Below the pieces are notes generated by a model, which saw nothing but the letters and a program-made list of their open reading frames with translations, was not told the DNA's origin and made no database searches. From assembly GCF_003426815.1 (NCBI RefSeq), contig NZ_QKYK01000031.1:1-64000 (forward strand): 64,000 bases of DNA, read 5' to 3'. Shown here piece after piece: positions 1,879-15,581 of the stretch (position 1 is the first letter of the stretch; every line of letters starts with the position of its first letter). Source of the stretch: Desertimonas flava (lineage in GTDB: Bacteria > Actinomycetota > Acidimicrobiia > Acidimicrobiales > Ilumatobacteraceae). A program made the translations under genes and the position numbers.

Positions 1879-3414
1879 ATGCACGGGCTGCGCACCGCGC
1901 GCGCCCGCTGGCGAGGAGCCATCGAGCTCATCGGCCTCGTCGCCGTCGTCGTGGCCTTCATCGGCATGGCGTCGATCCACGCCTTCCAGCAGCCGCCGTT
2001 CGCCCCGCCCGACGAGACGGCCCATCTCGGCTACGCCCACGAGATCGCCGACTTCCGGCTCCCCGAGATCGATCGTGCGCCGGACATCCCCGACTCGGCG
2101 GTGCAGTGGGCGGCCGAGCGCTCGACGGCCCGGGACGAGCGCTATCTCGGCGTCTGGGTGGCCAATCATCCGCCACTGAACTACGTGGTCACGGCCCCGC
2201 TGATCTGGCTGTCCGACGCCACCGACCGCGCCGACGGTGGGCTGCTCTACATGCGCCTCGCCAACGTTGCGATGGCGGCGGTCGGCGTGGTGCTGACGTT
2301 CGCCCTCGCCGGCGAGCTCGCCGGCGGGAGCCGGCGCGTCGGGCTGCTCGCCGCGGCCGTCGTCGCCGCGGTCCCGCAGGGCCACGGCGTGTTCTCACAG
2401 GGTCTGAACGACGGCATGGCCTTCGCCGTCGGTACCTCGGTCATCTGGGCCGGCGTCCGCTGCCTCACACGCGGCGCGGCTCGACGCGACGTCGTGTTGC
2501 TGGCCGCGACGTCCGTGGTCGCCTCGGGAACCCGCGCCGCCACGATGCTCCTCGCCATCGCCGTGGTCGGTTGCGTCGGGGCGTGGCAGCTCGCTCGGGG
2601 CCCTTCGCCCGTACGTGAGCGGGCCGTGTCGGCGCTGACGGTCTGGCTCGGCGCGGCGATCCCGATGGCACTCGCCTTCGGCTGGTTCTACCTCCGCAAC
2701 ATCCACCTGTACGGCGACATCGGTGCCTCCGACTACCTGCTGCGCCGATTCCGGCGCACCCGCAAGGGGAGCGTGCTGTCGATGATGACCCGGGGCCACA
2801 TGTGGGCGAACCTCTATCAGCGCCTCACCACGCCGGCGACACTCGGCCGGCGGGTCCCACCGGGCCTGACGATCTCGGCGATCCTGATGACGGCGGGAGT
2901 CGTCGGGGCCGCGGCGACCGGGCGGCCGGGCGGCGGGGCGACCGGCGACGACCCGGAGGAACGCACGACGTTCCGTGCAGCCCTCGGCCTCTGCACGATC
3001 GCCGTGGTCGTGATCGCAGCGACGGTCGCCCAGCACGTCAGCGGGGGCGGCAACGCCTACCCGCGCTACCTCTTCCCGGTGCTCGGCGTGCTGGCCGCCC
3101 TCGCCGTCGTCGGCCTCGACCGCCTGGTGCCGTACGTCGCGCCGCTCGCACTCGCCGTCGCGCTCGGTTGGTGGGCCATCCTCAACCTGCCCGTCGACGT
3201 CGACCCGACCCGGATCAGGCGTCCCCGGGACGACGGTGCGCCGCCGGTGATCCTCCAGGTGCTCCCGGTCGGTGACGGCTGGCGGGTCGCCGCCGGCGTG
3301 CTCGTCGCGATCGGCGCGATCGTCGCGGCCGTGGCGATGCTGGCGAGCACGATCGGTGATGCGCGGTCGCGGCGGGCGACAACGACCGAAGCGACGGCGA
3401 TGTCGCCGGTCTGA
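1879..3414 (+). CDS. polytopic membrane protein, DUF2142/GT-C-like glycosyltransferase
   Basis: 511 residues with about ten hydrophobic segments. After a first membrane helix, residues 38-56 carry FAPPDETAHLGYAHEIADF, the PPDE.AH signature seen at the first extracytoplasmic loop of DUF2142 and related GT-C lipid-linked sugar transferases, where the acidic residue is catalytic. The N-terminal helix, long luminal loop and many C-terminal helices fit that fold. It probably moves a sugar from a polyprenyl-phosphate donor to an envelope acceptor; donor and acceptor cannot be told. It stands alone, divergent from the small membrane gene 1554-1736, with a 142-nt shared upstream region in which no strong promoter was recognised. 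Confidence 0.7.
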   Translation: MHGLRTARARWRGAIELIGLVAVVVAFIGMASIHAFQQPPFAPPDETAHLGYAHEIADFRLPEIDRAPDIPDSAVQWAAERSTARDERYLGVWVANHPPLNYVVTAPLIWLSDATDRADGGLLYMRLANVAMAAVGVVLTFALAGELAGGSRRVGLLAAAVVAAVPQGHGVFSQGLNDGMAFAVGTSVIWAGVRCLTRGAARRDVVLLAATSVVASGTRAATMLLAIAVVGCVGAWQLARGPSPVRERAVSALTVWLGAAIPMALAFGWFYLRNIHLYGDIGASDYLLRRFRRTRKGSVLSMMTRGHMWANLYQRLTTPATLGRRVPPGLTISAILMTAGVVGAAATGRPGGGATGDDPEERTTFRAALGLCTIAVVVIAATVAQHVSGGGNAYPRYLFPVLGVLAALAVVGLDRLVPYVAPLALAVALGWWAILNLPVDVDPTRIRRPRDDGAPPVILQVLPVGDGWRVAAGVLVAIGAIVAAVAMLASTIGDARSRRATTTEATAMSPV

Positions 3415-8714: not shown

Positions 8715-9902
8715 CTACGCGGTCCGGAGCCAAGCCACGGGCTGGCGGACGGTGAGACGCTCGGTGTCGACGGCGATGTAGCTCTGCAGCACGCCGGCGA
8801 AGGGCGACACCACCTCCTGGTCGCCGACGTGCCCGAGCACGGTGCCGACCTCGATGGACGCCCCGTCGTCGATGCCCGCGGCTCTGGCGAACACGCCGGC
8901 TGACGGGCTGACGACGAGCCGCTCGCTGGCGAAGAGGTGCTCGCCCTCGACGCGTGCCGGCGGGGTGGGGATGTCGATGCGCAGGAACTCGATCAGCTTG
9001 TCGAGATCCTCGGGCGTGGCGACCGAGATCGTGCGGGCGCCGGTGGCCGTGCGCTTGGCCATCCCGGTGAGCACGCCGCCCGGGCCGAGTTCGATGAACT
9101 GGGTGACACCGAGGTCGACCAGCTCGAGCAGCGACTGCTTCCAGCGCACCGGTGACGACAGCTGCGCCGACAGGAGGCTGGCCCACTCGGAGCCGTCGCG
9201 GTGGGGGAGGGCGTCGACGTTGGAGATGACGGGGACCTCGGCGTCGCGGGGCGCAGCTGCGGCGATGGCACTGCGGAGGCGATCGCGGGCGCTGATCATG
9301 AACGGCGTGTGGAACGCGCCAGACACTTGCAGCGGCATCACCTTCTTGGCCCCGAGGTCCTTGGCGTGCACCCCGGCGGCGGCGACGCCGTCGTGCGAAC
9401 CGGCGATGACCACCTGCCCCGGGGCGTTGTAGTTGGCGACCCACACGTCGGCGTCGGCGCGGCGGCAGGCGACGTCGACCTGGTCGTCGTCGAGGCCGAG
9501 CACCGCGGCCATCGTGCCGGGGTGTTCGATGCCGGCGTCGTGCATGGCGTCGGCGCGGGCGGCGACGAGGCGGACGCCGTCCTCGAAACCGAGGGCGCCG
9601 GTGGCCGTGAGGGCGGTGTACTCACCGAGGCTGTGGCCGGCGCAGAAGCTCGGCTCGATGCCGAGGCGCTCTGCGGCGTCGAGCACCATGAGGCTGGAGA
9701 CGAACGTGGTGAGCTGGGCGTTGCGGGTGTCCCTCAACTCGTCGGCGTCGGCATCCAGCAACAAGCGGGCGACATCGCGGCCGTCGATCTCCTTGGCGAT
9801 CTCGCTGGCCTCTTCGACGAGCTCCCAGCTCTCGTGCTCCTGCCAGGGCCGGCCCATCCCGGGGCGTTGCGATCCCTGGCCTGGGAACGTGAAAGCGAGC
9901 AT
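8715..9902 (-). CDS. fabD: malonyl-CoA:ACP transacylase (FabD) with C-terminal biotinyl/lipoyl-like barrel
   Basis: 395 residues. Residues 1-300 are a FabD acyltransferase: TFPGQGSQ at the N-terminus, Ser91 in GHSLGE and His198 in GAFHTP, with the late motif ELGPGGVLTGM. It loads malonate onto ACP. Residues 322-395 add a domain not normal for FabD: VSPSAGVFARA, GTVLGHVGD and VVSPFAGVL form the two-hairpin pattern of a biotinyl/lipoyl barrel, but the hairpin that would present the modified lysine has SPFAG and no lysine, so it is unlikely to be biotinylated. The frame is open far upstream; MLAFTFPGQG and the TACCCT box 7 nt before it fix the start. Confidence 0.9.
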   Translation of the reverse strand: MLAFTFPGQGSQRPGMGRPWQEHESWELVEEASEIAKEIDGRDVARLLLDADADELRDTRNAQLTTFVSSLMVLDAAERLGIEPSFCAGHSLGEYTALTATGALGFEDGVRLVAARADAMHDAGIEHPGTMAAVLGLDDDQVDVACRRADADVWVANYNAPGQVVIAGSHDGVAAAGVHAKDLGAKKVMPLQVSGAFHTPFMISARDRLRSAIAAAAPRDAEVPVISNVDALPHRDGSEWASLLSAQLSSPVRWKQSLLELVDLGVTQFIELGPGGVLTGMAKRTATGARTISVATPEDLDKLIEFLRIDIPTPPARVEGEHLFASERLVVSPSAGVFARAAGIDDGASIEVGTVLGHVGDQEVVSPFAGVLQSYIAVDTERLTVRQPVAWLRTA

Positions 9903-9909
9903 TGCCGGA

Positions 9910-9915
9910 AGGGTA
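9910..9915 (-). promoter_or_regulatory. -10 box (TACCCT) for fabD
   Basis: On the minus strand TACCCT ends 7 nt before the fabD ATG at 9902, the expected geometry for a leaderless mRNA and probably the main promoter of the fab cluster. Confidence 0.5.
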
Positions 9916-9989
9916 GACGCACCGACCGGTCGGGATCGCAAACCTCTCTGCCAGTGCCGCTCTCGATGCTCGGTCGCACCGTGCATGAG

Positions 9990-10013
9990 ATACTCGCAAA
10001 AACCGAGTATGGT
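9990..10013 (+). promoter_or_regulatory. operator-like palindrome overlapping a -10 box
   Basis: ATACTCG (9990-9996) and CGAGTAT (10004-10010) form a 7-bp inverted repeat around an AT-rich CAAAAAC spacer. The right arm runs into TATGGT (10008-10013), a possible -10 box 6 nt before the ATG at 10020. A regulator bound here would block transcription of the ATPase gene; it lies 88 nt from the fabD start and could touch that promoter region as well. The binding protein is unknown. Confidence 0.5.
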
Positions 10014-10019
10014 GTGGCG

Positions 10020-11120
10020 ATGGTCGAGCTCAGCCCGTTCCCGATCGGCGGGCCCCTCCGTCCCGACGAGGTGACCGGCCGCGAGGAGCTCGTCCGCGAC
10101 CTCTCCGAACGGCTGCTCGCCCGCCGCGTGACGGCCCTGCTCGGCCCTCGCCGTTACGGCAAGACGAGCGTGCTGCGCAAGGTGGCGGCCGACCTCGCCG
10201 GCGTCGGCCCAGAGACGGTATGGATCGACCTCTACGGCCTGTCGTCGATGGCCGACCTCGCCGGCCGGCTCGACGAAGGACTCGCCCAGACCCGGGGCAA
10301 GCTGCGCCGGGCGATCGCCTCGATGGCCGAGAGCATGTCGCTCAAGCTCGGCGCGGTCACCGTGGAGTTCACCCGCAACCGCCTCAGCCGGCCCGACGCC
10401 ATCCTCGTCGCCCGGCCGCTGCTGCAGCTGCTCGTCAAGGCCGCCGAGCGTCACGACCTGTTGCTCGTCCTCGACGAGTTCTCCGGCGTCACCCGCGTCG
10501 ATGGCGCCGCCGCCCTGCTGCGCACCGGCCTCCAGCACCACTACCGCGACCTCAGCATCGTGTTCGCCGGCTCCGAGCCGTCGATGATGCGGGCGCTGTT
10601 CACCGACCGCGCCGAGCCCTTCTTCGGCCAGGCCGAGCTGCTGGAAATCGGCCCGATGGCCGACAGCGCCGTCGCCAGCATCGTCGTCGACGGGTTCGAC
10701 CGCACCGGCCGCGACGTCGGTGAGATCGACCAGCGCATCGTGGCGATGGCGCAAGGACACCCCTACCGTGCGATGGAGCTCGCCGACGCGCTGTGGCGCT
10801 GCACCGAACCCGGCGCCACCGCCGACGACGCCGGGTGGGAGCTCGCCCTCCAGTCGGTGCGCGCCGGCGTGGCCGTCGGCAGTGAGGCGTTGTTCCAGGC
10901 CCTGCCGCTCGGCTCACAGCGGGTGCTGCGGGCGATCGCCACCGACGGCAAGGCGTACGGCGCTACCGCCGAGGTGCTCGGCCTTGCCGCCGGCACTGCC
11001 CGCACGGCGATCCACGCGCTGGTCGGTGAGGGCCATCTCGACCGGCGTGACGGCAAGCTCGTGCTCACCGACCCGATGTTCGCCGACTGGATCCGCCAGC
11101 GCTTTCCCGGCCCCACCTGA
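10020..11120 (+). CDS. AAA-type ATPase with C-terminal winged helix (archaeal-type STAND-like ATPase)
   Basis: 366 residues. Walker A GPRRYGKTS (42-50) and Walker B LLLVLDEFSG (146-155) are clear, followed by a sensor-like IVFAGSEPSMM and a C-terminal region (from about 290) in which SQRVLRAIATDG and AALGLA-type helices suggest a winged-helix DNA-binding domain. This is the organisation of the ATPases related to the archaeal family (PF01637), often next to DUF234-like domains. Cellular role unknown; such ATPases occur in mobile or regulatory settings. The ATG at 10020 was chosen because it follows a -10-like box and palindrome; a GTG at 10014 is the alternative. Confidence 0.75.
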   Translation: MVELSPFPIGGPLRPDEVTGREELVRDLSERLLARRVTALLGPRRYGKTSVLRKVAADLAGVGPETVWIDLYGLSSMADLAGRLDEGLAQTRGKLRRAIASMAESMSLKLGAVTVEFTRNRLSRPDAILVARPLLQLLVKAAERHDLLLVLDEFSGVTRVDGAAALLRTGLQHHYRDLSIVFAGSEPSMMRALFTDRAEPFFGQAELLEIGPMADSAVASIVVDGFDRTGRDVGEIDQRIVAMAQGHPYRAMELADALWRCTEPGATADDAGWELALQSVRAGVAVGSEALFQALPLGSQRVLRAIATDGKAYGATAEVLGLAAGTARTAIHALVGEGHLDRRDGKLVLTDPMFADWIRQRFPGPT

Positions 11121-11169: not shown

Positions 11170-11246
11170 GCCCCGGTATCCCAATTGGCAGAGGAAGCGG
11201 ATTCAAAACCCGCACAGTGTGGGTTCGAGTCCCACCCGGGGCACCA
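11170..11246 (+). tRNA. tRNA-Leu(CAA)-like gene with short variable loop and encoded CCA
   Basis: A full cloverleaf can be drawn: acceptor GCCCCGG/CCGGGGC, A73, encoded CCA; D stem TCCC/AGGA with loop AATTGGCAG; anticodon stem GCGGA/CCCGC with an A.C mismatch at the loop-closing pair; loop TTCAAAA with anticodon CAA at 11214-11216; T stem GTGGG/CCCAC with TTCGAGT. The anticodon reads Leu codon TTG, and A73 fits leucine, but the variable loop is only ACAGT (5 nt) whereas normal leucine tRNAs are class II with a long arm. It may be an atypical or element-borne tRNA. A second copy of its 3' half lies at 12167-12214. Confidence 0.8.
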
Positions 11247-11261
11247 ACGGAGACTTCTCGC

Positions 11262-12032
11262 TCAGCACTTTGGGCCCACCACCTGATCGAGGATCGCAAC
11301 GTCGGCACGCTTGGCCACCGACACCGTCCAGGCGTTCATCCGGCGAGTGCCGACGCTGATTCGCTCGCACCCGTCGACGAACAACTGCCTGATGTCCGCG
11401 GAGCGATTGGAGAACAGGTAGCGGGGATACTCGTACGTCTTCCCGTTCGCCCCGCGCACGCGATTCGTTCCGCGCCAACCGTCGCTGTGGATGAGGCCGC
11501 GGACGAACTGTCCCGGCGCCGCCTCGAGGGCGAGGTGACGTTGCCACTCGGTGAGCTCGATCAGGCGCGTGTGCTTCACGCCGCCTCTTCCGTGGGGCAG
11601 CAAACATGGCCAGTGGTGCCAGCTGTCGCTGAGCTCCGTGCACCCGGTACGCGGCAGGCGGCGCACCTGCGCCTCGGGTCGCACGGTCACGATCGCCAGC
11701 TCGCACTCGTCCATCACGCCCGGGTAGTCGTCGCAGCATGTGATGCGCAGCCGGAAGCTCCGCTTCACCGCACTGATGCAACCGTCGCCGAGGTACTGGC
11801 CGAGCAGGTATGCGTAGGCGCTCGGGTCGAGCGAAGCCGGGTCGATGCACTCGCCGCGGTACGTCGGTCGGCCGAGGCGCGACGCCCCCCGTTCTGCCAC
11901 CAGCGAGGAGCCGACTCGCAGCCAGGCGACGACCGTGGTCCGGCTGATCCCCAGCTCGCTGGCGATCGAGTCCGGCGACCGCCCCGTTCGTTCAAGCGCC
12001 AGCGCCTGGGCGACGATCGCGTCGGAGTACAT
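11262..12032 (-). CDS. HTH plus LAGLIDADG homing endonuclease
   Basis: 256 residues from the ATG at 12032 (a TTG six codons earlier is possible). The first 40 residues look like a helix-turn-helix (SIASELGISRTTVVAWL). Two LAGLIDADG motifs follow, YLLGQYLGDGCI and FVRGLIHSDGW, each ending in the metal-binding Asp, about 100 residues apart as in single-chain homing endonucleases. The gene runs convergently toward the tRNA and sits exactly between that tRNA and a partial copy of its 3' half, so its target is plausibly the tRNA sequence (inference). No intron or intein splice features were seen around it. Confidence 0.8.
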   Translation of the reverse strand: MYSDAIVAQALALERTGRSPDSIASELGISRTTVVAWLRVGSSLVAERGASRLGRPTYRGECIDPASLDPSAYAYLLGQYLGDGCISAVKRSFRLRITCCDDYPGVMDECELAIVTVRPEAQVRRLPRTGCTELSDSWHHWPCLLPHGRGGVKHTRLIELTEWQRHLALEAAPGQFVRGLIHSDGWRGTNRVRGANGKTYEYPRYLFSNRSADIRQLFVDGCERISVGTRRMNAWTVSVAKRADVAILDQVVGPKC

Positions 12033-12091
12033 GGGTCCCAGTGTGACCAAGGGGTGTAGCAGTCGACCGGAGTCGAGGGCCGGCGGGGTGC

Positions 12092-12163
12092 TCAGTCGAC
12101 ACGACGTCGAGACCGAGTCCCAGCGCGATGGGGATCTGGATCGGGTCGAACGTCACGTAGCGC
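12092..12163 (-). pseudogene. fragment of a vapC toxin gene 3' end
   Basis: On the minus strand this stretch reads RYVTFDPIQIPIALGLGLDV, nearly the same as the last residues of the intact VapC at 14905-15303 (HYVTFDPIQIPVALGLGFDV). About 30 bases in the middle are identical. The stop is displaced by a base change in length, and no upstream PIN domain remains; tRNA-derived sequence begins directly upstream instead. It is a duplicated remnant left at a recombination junction. Confidence 0.7.
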
Positions 12164-12166
12164 ACG

Positions 12167-12214
12167 GAGCGGATCCACAACCCGCACAGTGTGGGTTCGA
12201 GTCCCACCGGGCAC
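12167..12214 (+). repeat. duplicated tRNA 3' half (tRNA pseudogene, att-like)
   Basis: From the anticodon stem (AGCGGAT) through the variable loop and T arm this repeats the tRNA at 11170-11246. Thirty bases from AACCCGCACAGTG onward (12179-12208) are identical; the anticodon loop differs (TCCACAA), and the acceptor strand is shortened to CGGGCAC. The D arm is absent. It bounds a segment of about 1 kb that contains the homing endonuclease gene, as the second copy of an integration site would. Confidence 0.75.
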
Positions 12215-12274: not shown

Positions 12275-14779
12275 TCAACGCGTGGCGGGCAGCAGCTGTT
12301 GTGGCGCGGCCGTCACCGTGACGACGAACGACGCCGTGGTCTCATTGCCGCCGACGACCTGCGCGGGTGCCCGGCGGGTGTTCCGGAGGCCGGCGGGGCC
12401 GGCGAACGCGTCCGATGCCGTGCAGGTGACGGTCGTCGCACCGATGGCGAACAGACTCCCCGAAGGGGGAACGCATGTGACCGAAACGTCGCCGGCGATC
12501 GCGTCGTGGGCGGTGACCGTGAACTCGACGACCGCACCGTCTGGCCCGGTGGCGACCGCGTTGACCGACTGCGGCACGCTGATGTCGGGACCCGTGCTGT
12601 CGGTGACCGTGACGCTGAAACCTCCGGTGGCGACGTGGCCGGCGCTGTCGGTGGCCGTACAGGTGACGTCGGTGGTGCCGATGGCGAAGGTCGTGCCCGA
12701 GGCCGGCGAGCAGGCCGCCTCGAGGTCGCCGTCGACGTCGTCGGTCGCCGTGACGGAGAAGTCGACCACGGCGCCGCCCGGCCCCGTGGCCTCGACGGTG
12801 CGATCGGCCGGCAGCGTGAGCACTGGCGTGCCCTCGTCGACCACGGTGACGGTGAACTCGTCGGACGCTCGGTTGCCGGCCGCGTCGGTGGCCGAACAGC
12901 TGACCGTCGTGGAGCCCACCGGGAAGGAGGTGCCCGACGGCGGATCGCACATGGCCGTGACGTCGCCGTCGACGACGTCGGTGGCGATCGCCTCGAAGTC
13001 GACGGCGGCCCCGTCCGGCCCGGTGGCCGTGGCCTGGAGATCAGGCAGTGCGAGGTCCGGGGCCGTGGTGTCCTCGATCGTGACGCTGAAGTTGGACGTC
13101 GTCGTGTTCGCGTGGCTGTCCGTGGCGGTGCACGAGACGTCAGTGAATCCGATCGGGAACGTCGATCCGGTGACTGGCGTGCAGACCACCGGCACGGCAC
13201 CGTCGACGAGGTCGGTGGCGGTGGTCACCCAGTCGGCGACGGCGCCCGAGGGGCCGGTCGCTTCGAGCGAGATGTCGGTGGGGACGTCGAGAGCGGGGGC
13301 TGTGGTGTCGACGATCGTGATGCCGAACGAGTCGTCGACGGAGTTGCCCGAGCCGTCCGTTGCCGAGCAGGTCACGGTGACCAGACCGAGGGCGTGTGTC
13401 GAGCCGACCACGGGATTGCACGTGATGGTCGGACTGCCCAGGGCGTCGTCGGCGGTGACGTCGTAGTCGATCGCCGTGAGCGGTCCAGTCGCCTCGATGG
13501 CGAAGTCGGCGGGCACGTCGATCGTCGGCGGCGCCGAGTCGGTGACCGTGATCGTGAACGCGTCTGAGGCCGTGTTGCCGGCGGAATCGGTGACCGAGCA
13601 GTTGATCGTGACCGGTCCGAGCGGGTGAGACGTGCCCGAGAGCGGGGCACAGGCTGGAGTGAGGACACCGTCCACCGCATCGAACGCGGGCAGGACGGTA
13701 TACGTGATCTCCGTCGACGAGCCCGTCGCCTCAATGGTGGAGTCGTTGGGCAGGAAGAGTCGCGGCGGCGTGTCCAGCACGGTGATCCGGAACGTGTCGC
13801 TGCCGGTGTTGCCGGCGCCGTCTGTGGCGCTGCAGGTGACGATCGTCGAGCCGATGGGGAAGACCGTGCCCGACGTGCGGTCGCACGTGGCGGTGAGGGG
13901 TGACGTCACGGCGTCGGTCGCCGTCGCAGCCGCGAACGTCACGGTCGCGCCTGCGGCCGAGGTCGCCGACACCGCCGTGTCGCCGGGGGCGGTGACAACG
14001 GGCGGGTCGTCGTCGACGACGGTGACCGTGAAGGTCGCCGTCCCCACGCCGCTCGCGTCGTCGGTCGCGGTGCACGCGACCGTCGTGGTGCCGACGGGGA
14101 ACGCAGAACCCGACGCCGGAGCGCACGATTGCGACACGATGGATCCGTTGTCGGAGGCAGTAGCGGTGTAGGTCACCCGGGCCGTGGCCAGCCCGGTATC
14201 GGTGCCCACGGTGATCGGTGCCGGCACTTGCCAGACCGGAACCGGATCGGAGGCGATCGTGTAGTCGTACGTCAGGGTGATGGTGCCGCTCAGGCTGATC
14301 GTCGCACCCCACGGGAACGTTCCCGACTGGCCGGACACGACGCCGGTCAACGCGCTGGGCGAGTAGGTCCCGCTGCCGGCCTCGCCGGCGACCGTCGCCG
14401 AACCCGAGAAGGCCAGAGCGACGCTGCCGTCCCTCGTGTCGAAGGGCGTCGTGTCCTGTCGTCCCGCGTACGACAACACGGCATTTGCGCCGTAGTTGCC
14501 CGAGCCGACCACGGAGCCGGTCAGGTCCCACGAGACGGTCGTGCTGTTGAGCGTGCCGAGCGCGCTGTTGAAGCGAGTGAACGTCGGCGAGGTGGAGAAG
14601 ATGGTCTGCGTGGCGCCAGACGTGAAGCCACCGGCCGACTCGCTGACGTTGACCGTCACCGACTGAGGGGTGGTCGTGTCTGCAGCGGCCGGTTGCGGCG
14701 CGCCGAGCGTCGACACGCTGACCGGCAGGGCACATAGGCCGATCACCATCAGCCAGCGTCCGATCAAAGCTCGCGTCAT
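12275..14779 (-). CDS. secreted protein with eight HYR (Ig-like) repeats
   Basis: 834 residues. The N-terminus is a signal peptide (MTRALIGRWLMVIGLCALPV...PAAAD, likely cleavage near residue 34). A first domain to about residue 190 is rich in Thr, Ser and Gly with no recognised family. Then eight units of about 80 residues each end with patterns such as TFTVTVVDDDPPVV or NFSVTIEDTTAPDL and contain a Cys pair in C.P.SG..FP.G.T.V.C.ATD, the HYR module associated with adhesion. There is no LPXTG motif or C-terminal membrane helix, so attachment to the cell is unclear. GGAGGA precedes the ATG by 4-5 nt. It is 125 nt from vapC and not obviously linked to it. Confidence 0.85.
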   Translation of the reverse strand: MTRALIGRWLMVIGLCALPVSVSTLGAPQPAAADTTTPQSVTVNVSESAGGFTSGATQTIFSTSPTFTRFNSALGTLNSTTVSWDLTGSVVGSGNYGANAVLSYAGRQDTTPFDTRDGSVALAFSGSATVAGEAGSGTYSPSALTGVVSGQSGTFPWGATISLSGTITLTYDYTIASDPVPVWQVPAPITVGTDTGLATARVTYTATASDNGSIVSQSCAPASGSAFPVGTTTVACTATDDASGVGTATFTVTVVDDDPPVVTAPGDTAVSATSAAGATVTFAAATATDAVTSPLTATCDRTSGTVFPIGSTIVTCSATDGAGNTGSDTFRITVLDTPPRLFLPNDSTIEATGSSTEITYTVLPAFDAVDGVLTPACAPLSGTSHPLGPVTINCSVTDSAGNTASDAFTITVTDSAPPTIDVPADFAIEATGPLTAIDYDVTADDALGSPTITCNPVVGSTHALGLVTVTCSATDGSGNSVDDSFGITIVDTTAPALDVPTDISLEATGPSGAVADWVTTATDLVDGAVPVVCTPVTGSTFPIGFTDVSCTATDSHANTTTSNFSVTIEDTTAPDLALPDLQATATGPDGAAVDFEAIATDVVDGDVTAMCDPPSGTSFPVGSTTVSCSATDAAGNRASDEFTVTVVDEGTPVLTLPADRTVEATGPGGAVVDFSVTATDDVDGDLEAACSPASGTTFAIGTTDVTCTATDSAGHVATGGFSVTVTDSTGPDISVPQSVNAVATGPDGAVVEFTVTAHDAIAGDVSVTCVPPSGSLFAIGATTVTCTASDAFAGPAGLRNTRRAPAQVVGGNETTASFVVTVTAAPQQLLPATR

Positions 14780-14904: not shown

Positions 14905-15303
14905 TCACGTGGAGGCGACGTCGAAGCCGAGGCCGAGGGCGACGGGGATCTGGATCGGGTCGAACGTCACGTAGTGGACGGGTCGTGGTAGTCGGACAGC
15001 CGCGGCGAGCTGGATCGCGTCGGCGAGGCGGATCGGCTGCTCGCGGAGCAAGGACGCCGCCGTGTCGAGGCCGCGCTGATCGACGGGGACGACGTGATAG
15101 CGGTCCCACTGGAGGCGGATGGCGTCCTCGAGATCGGTACGGAGGATCGCCTCGTCGGTGAGCTTGTCGATGACGGCAAGTGCCTCCGTCAGCGCGAGGG
15201 CGCTGACGCACGTCTCGTCGTCGAGCGCGGCCGCGGCGATCCGCCGCTCGGCCACGTCGACGTGCAAGGCGACGACCGCGCTCGTGTCGAAGAACGTCGT
15301 CAT
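14905..15303 (-). CDS. vapC: VapC-family PIN-domain ribonuclease toxin
   Basis: 132 residues, usual length. The four acidic residues of the PIN active site are visible: Asp6 (FFDTSAVV), Glu40 (ALTEAL), Asp95 (LADAIQLA) and Asp115 (TFDP). Such toxins cleave structured RNA, often tRNA. The ATG overlaps the antitoxin stop by ATGA. Its last 70 nt are duplicated, diverged, at 12092-12163 beside the tRNA remnant. The start is set by the overlap with vapB. Confidence 0.9.
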   Translation of the reverse strand: MTTFFDTSAVVALHVDVAERRIAAAALDDETCVSALALTEALAVIDKLTDEAILRTDLEDAIRLQWDRYHVVPVDQRGLDTAASLLREQPIRLADAIQLAAAVRLPRPVHYVTFDPIQIPVALGLGFDVAST

Positions 15304-15581
15304 CCGCGGACCTCGCGAAGGGCGCGGTCGAGGCGGACGCCGCTCCAGATCGGTACAGGGTCGGTCGTGCGCGCCGGTCCCGAGCGCCGCGGCGGGACGA
15401 GGAGGCCGGCGGCGACGAGGGCGTCGAGTGTGGTGTCGTCGCCGACGGGCGTGTCGACCGGGCCGATGGCCGCGGTGGCCCGCCCGCCGACGGTGACGAC
15501 GAGCCGGTGGCCGGCCGCCGCCCGGCGAAGGTGGGTGGCGAGGTCGGCCCGCAGCTCCCGTGACCCGATGTGCTCCGTCAT
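15300..15581 (-). CDS. vapB: VapB/Phd-type antitoxin
   Basis: 93 residues. The N-terminal half, with SRELRADLATHLRRAAAGH and VVTVGGRATAAIGP, matches the Phd/YefM (prevent-host-death) fold that binds DNA; the C-terminal half, ending VPIWSGVRLDRALREVRG, is the kind of flexible, arginine-bearing segment that wraps the toxin. It neutralises the adjacent VapC and probably represses the pair through the palindrome at 15584-15597, which is directly upstream of its start. ATGA overlap with vapC. Confidence 0.88.
   Translation of the reverse strand: MTEHIGSRELRADLATHLRRAAAGHRLVVTVGGRATAAIGPVDTPVGDDTTLDALVAAGLLVPPRRSGPARTTDPVPIWSGVRLDRALREVRG

Follow-up and report, generated by a model that had tools for sequence, protein, structure and literature searches.

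A homing endonuclease gene paired with tRNA-Leu as a candidate natural home-and-rescue element in Actinobacteria and phages

A gene for a predicted free-standing LAGLIDADG homing endonuclease, extended by an N-terminal helix-turn-helix (HTH) domain, forms a conserved unit with a tRNA-Leu gene. This unit was identified in a stretch of 64,000 nucleotides from Desertimonas flava (contig NZ_QKYK01000031.1, positions 1 to 64,000; hereafter the window), which is one case of what is apparently one large, undescribed system; no description of the nuclease/tRNA-Leu pairing was found in the literature searched, which excluded most subscription journals. We consider it probable that the locus is a home-and-rescue element, in which the endonuclease gene is linked to a complete tRNA-Leu, and prefer this reading because it is the simplest account of the pairing, the broken tRNAs, the odd linked tRNAs, their shuffling and the decay of the gene. 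The enzyme would make a double-strand break in a canonical tRNA-Leu gene, at or near the border between the D arm and the anticodon arm (GGNAGAC/GC), and repair from an element-bearing copy would introduce both the nuclease gene and a tRNA-Leu that no longer fits the enzyme. This replacement, often on a class I scaffold with a short variable arm, or else class II with an altered D arm, would rescue decoding and avoid self-cutting. Fragments of the broken tRNA would sometimes stay behind (a 3′ part in the window and in locus L209, 5′ parts in loci L132, L133, L305 and L308), and the nuclease gene would later decay and be lost, leaving the replaced tRNA. With slightly more reserve, we lean towards the broader proposal that this is a natural, widespread element that drives class II tRNA-Leu to be replaced by class I in Actinobacteria, and that some phages embed the rescue tRNA in the nuclease gene itself.

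The single tRNA found by ARAGORN in the 64-kb window is an intact tRNA-Leu(CAA) of class I, with a short variable region (11170..11246, + strand; 52.3 bits against the Rfam tRNA model), which we read as the recoded, or replacement, tRNA. Convergent with it is the nuclease gene, an intact ORF of 262 aa with a TTG start (11262..12050, − strand), whose stop codon lies ~16 bp past the tRNA end. A partial second copy of the tRNA follows at 12168..12211 (+ strand). The initial annotation had described these three components, and ARAGORN, the ORF, the structural model and blastn confirmed all of them. It had also described a compact unit lacking an integrase. Indeed, the nuclease gene was the only gene recognised between the tRNA and the remnant, no site-specific recombinase was found there, and protein family searches gave no integrase family match for the nuclease itself. 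In both genomes whose tRNA-Leu sets were compiled from Rfam matches (2/2, window genome included), the CAA tRNA adjoining the nuclease gene was the sole tRNA-Leu(CAA) found. An ATPase-like ORF (9900-11120, + strand) separates fabD from the tRNA in the window; in relatives, the tRNA lies close behind fabD. On the far side, beside the remnant, a gene at 12275-14779 (− strand) encodes a large protein that has a signal-like N terminus and ~80-residue repeats, spaced at 231-237 bp in the DNA.

Pfam returned only weak HTH matches for the window protein, with HTH_23 (E 6.6e-5) just under the cut-off, and LAGLIDADG_3 was matched weakly by 2/4 aligned members. An AlphaFold2 model built from 38 locus-derived sequences (mean pLDDT 91) placed a three-helix HTH at residues 9-45 (11913..12023, − strand), in agreement with the HTH_23 match, followed by a two-motif LAGLIDADG fold at residues 75-256. 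The first motif, YAYLLGQYLGDGCI (11775..11816, − strand), carries the acidic residue D88 and the second, GLIHSDGWR (11472..11498, − strand), carries D189. Both residues were invariant in the 38 members, which fits an active nuclease. The nearest solved structures were the homing endonucleases I-Tsp061I (E 5e-8) and I-DmoI (Z ~15) and the domesticated regulator WhiA (Z ~15.8). Judged by modelled fold and conserved residues, the window protein is thus predicted to be a LAGLIDADG homing endonuclease, having the fold and both acidic residues in common with I-DmoI and I-Tsp061I. Self-splicing introns house those two enzymes and conceal the insertion, whereas an intron family search of the window and eight related loci found no self-splicing intron. 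The window-type protein also differs from them in its added N-terminal HTH. LAGLIDADG genes without an HTH were seen directly downstream of tRNA-Met(CAU) (L314-L316), and the nuclease that follows tRNA-Leu(UAA) in L208 also lacks an HTH.

We investigated how consistently the gene is paired with tRNA-Leu in other genomes. tRNA-Leu(CAA) adjoins it in 4/4 relatives of the same order. A scan of GTDB contigs with the single protein found no relative, but an alignment query found more than 570, and tRNA-Leu(CAA) adjoined the gene in all of the best 80 loci (80/80; mostly Streptomyces, with Nocardiopsis, Actinomadura and others). In a phylum-wide sample, 29/396 actinobacterial genomes had the gene, and the nearest tRNA was tRNA-Leu in 27/29 of these loci (the window apart), mostly CAA but also UAG, CAG and UAA. 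The remaining two adjoin tRNA-Trp (L205, L207); the few relatives outside tRNA-Leu lie at these or at tRNA-Met (L314-L316). Across 159 tabulated loci, some of them fetched through a neighbouring gene, the nearest tRNA was tRNA-Leu in 157 and lay at most 150 bp away in 153 (median distance 99 bp). The pairing therefore recurs, at tRNA-Leu almost everywhere, and in no locus was the gene far from any tRNA. Its position relative to the tRNA varies (upstream or downstream, codirectional or opposite) and, as it occurs on either strand and side, the two do not form a fixed operon. No relatives were found among annotated phages or plasmids. The conserved unit is the nuclease gene plus tRNA-Leu.

That the endonuclease aims at a tRNA gene, as initially proposed, is supported by tRNA-Leu genes found broken beside it. 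In four phage loci (L132, L133, L305, L308), the 5′ part of a class II tRNA-Leu is broken off at the D-arm/anticodon-arm border, and in all four a complete, differently spelled tRNA-Leu stands beside the nuclease gene or inside its ORF. In L133, a phage-like contig, the ORF splits a class II tRNA-Leu into a 25-nt 5′ part, ahead of the ORF, and the T arm plus acceptor behind it, and the two parts form 7/7 acceptor pairs. A complete class I tRNA-Leu(CAA) (3103-3176) is embedded in frame in this ORF, between HTH and LAGLIDADG. L132 has the same layout, with a complete tRNA-Leu(UAA) (3118-3192) embedded in frame between the two domains. In L308, the 5′ part is followed by the gene and then by a class I tRNA-Leu(CAA). 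L305 combines the 5′ part with tRNA-Leu(UAA) and an oppositely oriented gene; it is the counterpart of the window layout, in which the 3′ part remains. When tRNAs divided by the gene were sought under strict criteria, both halves were clearly present only in L133; no 3′ parts matching the 5′ parts of L132, L305 and L308 were found. A possible, less clean 5′ part in L309 was not counted. Outside annotated tRNAs, a class II 5′-part pattern had 12 matches in 2.05 million strand-bases. Four of these were the phage loci above and one was another phage site (L133 4997); the other seven, in bacterial loci, look like chance occurrences in coding sequence. Four 5′ parts were thus seen near the gene against a rough expectation of 0.14, a comparison to be read in light of how the cases were found: some were first spotted by eye, and the search pattern was then derived from them. 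The broken targets in phages also lie in tRNA arrays, where fragments may be common. At L133 4997-5131, ~110 bp separate a T arm from a tRNA-Leu-like 5′ part; ARAGORN made no call here, and the site is possibly a tRNA with an insertion.

The breakpoints of all these fragments converge. The last nucleotide of the 5′ parts is nt 25 (26-27 in L305), and the 3′ remnants start at nt 27 in the window and nt 28 in L209, which together mark the D-arm/anticodon-arm border. From this convergence we infer that the enzyme would cut at or near that border. The initial annotation had placed the insertion at the tRNA 3′ end, but the break lies instead where the anticodon arm begins.

The linked tRNAs themselves are of an unusual type. 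The canonical D-arm motif was absent from 154/157 linked tRNA-Leu, the exceptions being L134, L196 and L210, and 122/157 were class I. A canonical tRNA-Leu(CAA) motif occurred in 225/396 actinobacterial genomes, yet in only 1/29 carriers of the gene (Fisher test, p 3e-10). The contrast between carriers and non-carriers was maintained by genus (p 5e-6) and was moderately significant when stratified by family (26/80 non-carriers versus 1/29 carriers, p 0.011), the weaker family-level value meaning that part of the contrast reflects shared ancestry. In the family of the window organism, the site by fabD holds tRNA-Leu(CAA) without the gene, and this tRNA is class II and canonical in some genera and class I in others. 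Hence, the tRNA has been exchanged in place.

Exchange of the tRNA was also apparent at a finer scale. We slid a 75-nt window along 73 Streptomyces-type loci whose flanks are conserved and set each position against the distant flanks. Only the tRNA was uncorrelated with them (r 0.05, versus 0.26-0.57 for all other windows), which indicates that in these loci the tRNA probably moves on its own. Two phage contigs, L214 and L215, are 97% identical over 3.5 kb but carry unrelated tRNA-Leu(UAA) genes at the same place. Elsewhere, their differences cluster densely only in the HTH recognition helix of the adjacent gene, a pattern that suggests recognition. In Streptomyces, a covariation between tRNA and HTH seemed significant but vanished once neighbouring DNA was controlled for; as linkage explains the correlation, we make no claim of coevolution there.

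These observations bear on a plainer alternative, namely that the gene is an ordinary free-standing homing endonuclease for which tRNA-Leu is a target or a safe landing site, a mere neighbour with no part in any rescue. The constant adjacency to tRNA-Leu would suit such an enzyme, as would the gene's variable side and strand relative to the tRNA. However, it leaves unexplained why a complete tRNA-Leu lies by or inside the ORF next to a broken one, why the canonical tRNA is nearly absent from carriers and why the tRNA alone is shuffled, and we regard this alternative as unlikely. Under the home-and-rescue reading, tRNA function would be restored, in keeping with the initial annotation, although the route differs: the tRNA stays functional by way of a complete, differently spelled tRNA-Leu and not by a repeated 3′ half.

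The window itself fits the home-and-rescue picture, though not cleanly. Its tRNA-Leu remnant (12168..12211, + strand) runs from nt 27 into the acceptor arm and matches nt 27-70 of the intact tRNA (11196-11239) at 41/44 positions, with 30 identical bases in a row (blastn E 6e-14 over the whole window), far beyond chance. The second copy that the initial annotation reported is therefore real, but it is also degraded, with GATCCAC in the mutated anticodon region against GATTCAA in the intact tRNA and two deletions at the acceptor end. This decay and a neighbouring feature had both been missed. A 66-bp fragment (12102..12167), which matches the 3′-terminal part of a PIN-domain (VapC-like) gene (88% identical to 14916-14981), abuts the remnant on its left and is joined to it exactly at tRNA nt 27, so that the remnant is not a clean insertion footprint. 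The near identity of remnant and intact tRNA counts against home-and-rescue, since a resistant replacement would be expected to differ at the target. The PIN-domain gene itself lies at 14905-15581 (− strand) of the window, with a Phd/YefM-like antitoxin gene ahead of it.

The second copy could instead be an unrelated local rearrangement that joined a vapC-like fragment to a piece of tRNA and says nothing about the element. The exact fusion of the vapC-like 3′ end to nt 27 speaks for such an event, as does the occurrence of a 3′ remnant in just one other bacterial locus (L209). Against it, the window breakpoint falls within a few bases of those in the four phage loci and L209, so that we think a local rearrangement improbable, and this reading of the window can in any case stand alongside home-and-rescue for the family as a whole.

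Presence, decay and absence of the gene were all seen at one type of site, in keeping with a cycle of gain, decay and loss. In one Streptomyces-like genus, 109/150 genomes had the gene (~18 of them only as decayed pieces) and 41 did not. The tRNA was also found at the same place without the gene. Two genomes had tandem nuclease gene copies; in G615 and G627, tandem genes beside one tRNA-Leu(CAA) (L237, L259, L261) look as if a second copy had entered. Genomes that lack the gene show an unchanged range of odd tRNA-Leu(CAA), which is the pattern that loss of the gene after replacement of the tRNA would leave. More generally, many tRNA-Leu genes had no nuclease gene, which is what empty or vacated sites would look like.

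This turnover helps to weigh another possibility, that the gene encodes a domesticated DNA-binding protein akin to WhiA, with a role in regulating or protecting the tRNA-Leu gene next to it. WhiA has the same domain types as the window protein, the LAGLIDADG part fits it well (Z ~15.8), the gene is present in around three quarters of the genomes of that Streptomyces-like genus, and it is fairly congruent with its flanking genes. WhiA is, however, a regulator whose HTH is C-terminal. This WhiA/DUF199 feature, an HTH after the LAGLIDADG domain, is absent from the window protein, whose HTH (9-45) precedes the LAGLIDADG domain (75-256). The window-type protein further differs in keeping its acidic residues, which are invariant at both motifs in the 38 members, and in the decay of its copies, with many decayed copies and absences within a single genus. 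Its orientation is variable, it is found inside broken phage tRNAs, and a regulatory role leaves the broken tRNAs with carried replacements unexplained. Domestication of this kind is therefore a distinctly poor candidate.

When each locus was searched by blast with its own tRNA, the window and L209 alone showed 3′ repeats, and L209 runs from a decayed gene through a complete tRNA-Leu(CAA) to the 3′ part, with the gene not between the tRNA copies. The duplicated 3′ half, which the initial annotation had made part of the unit, is thus not general and does not belong to the conserved unit, being absent from nearly all relatives. The literal form of that model, an insertion between direct repeats of the tRNA 3′ half with integrase-style regeneration of the tRNA, has in its favour the window order of tRNA, gene and 3′ part (41/44 identity) and the complete tRNA plus 3′ part of L209, but is very improbable given that no such repeat occurs in the other loci tested, that the L209 gene does not lie between copies and that a vapC-like fragment intervenes in the window. 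Overall, the core idea of the initial annotation was largely right and its details were wrong.

Among known systems, the nearest functional analogue of the window-type nuclease is SegB, although SegB belongs to the GIY-YIG nuclease family and not to LAGLIDADG; the GIY-YIG fold is absent from the window protein, whose fold is LAGLIDADG. In phages T4 and T6, SegB is described as a free-standing homing endonuclease near tRNA genes that moves or amplifies linked tRNA and is suggested to cleave within tRNA-containing sequences (PMC13096335). The window-type gene resembles it in being a free-standing homing endonuclease adjoining tRNA genes. It differs in that SegB is described in phages and, in the part of that report available to us, neither with a pairing to one isotype nor with a carried replacement for a broken tRNA (PMC13096335). 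Elements that integrate into tRNA genes by a tyrosine integrase, with att at the tRNA 3′ end, likewise insert at a tRNA gene and keep the tRNA functional, whereas here there is no integrase, the break lies at the D-arm/anticodon-arm border and a whole replacement tRNA would maintain the function. Engineered cleave-and-rescue and home-and-rescue drives follow the same proposed logic of cutting an important gene while carrying a recoded copy. These drives are man-made, and the window-type element would be a natural instance that involves a tRNA; the literature searched, again excluding most subscription journals, yielded no counterpart of cleave-and-rescue drives in nature.

Selfish nucleases commonly lie between genes or have their insertion concealed by splicing, as in introns and inteins. 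If the home-and-rescue reading is true, carrying a recoded copy of the broken gene would be a third solution, the one that engineers chose for cleave-and-rescue, and such enzymes could be new site-specific nucleases against tRNA genes. In the phage cases L132 and L133, a protein gene contains a tRNA gene in frame. Few genes are as constant as those for tRNAs usually are, and the same reading would explain the variability of tRNA-Leu(CAA) in Actinobacteria and provide a testable cause for the turnover of a core tRNA. As a separate observation, tRNA-Leu(UAG) is also class I in the window genome (L010 1459-1533), with no nuclease gene seen adjoining it, and in one Streptomyces genome (L163). Where UAG is class I (the window genome and a Streptomyces genome), the CAG, GAG and UAA tRNA-Leu are class II.
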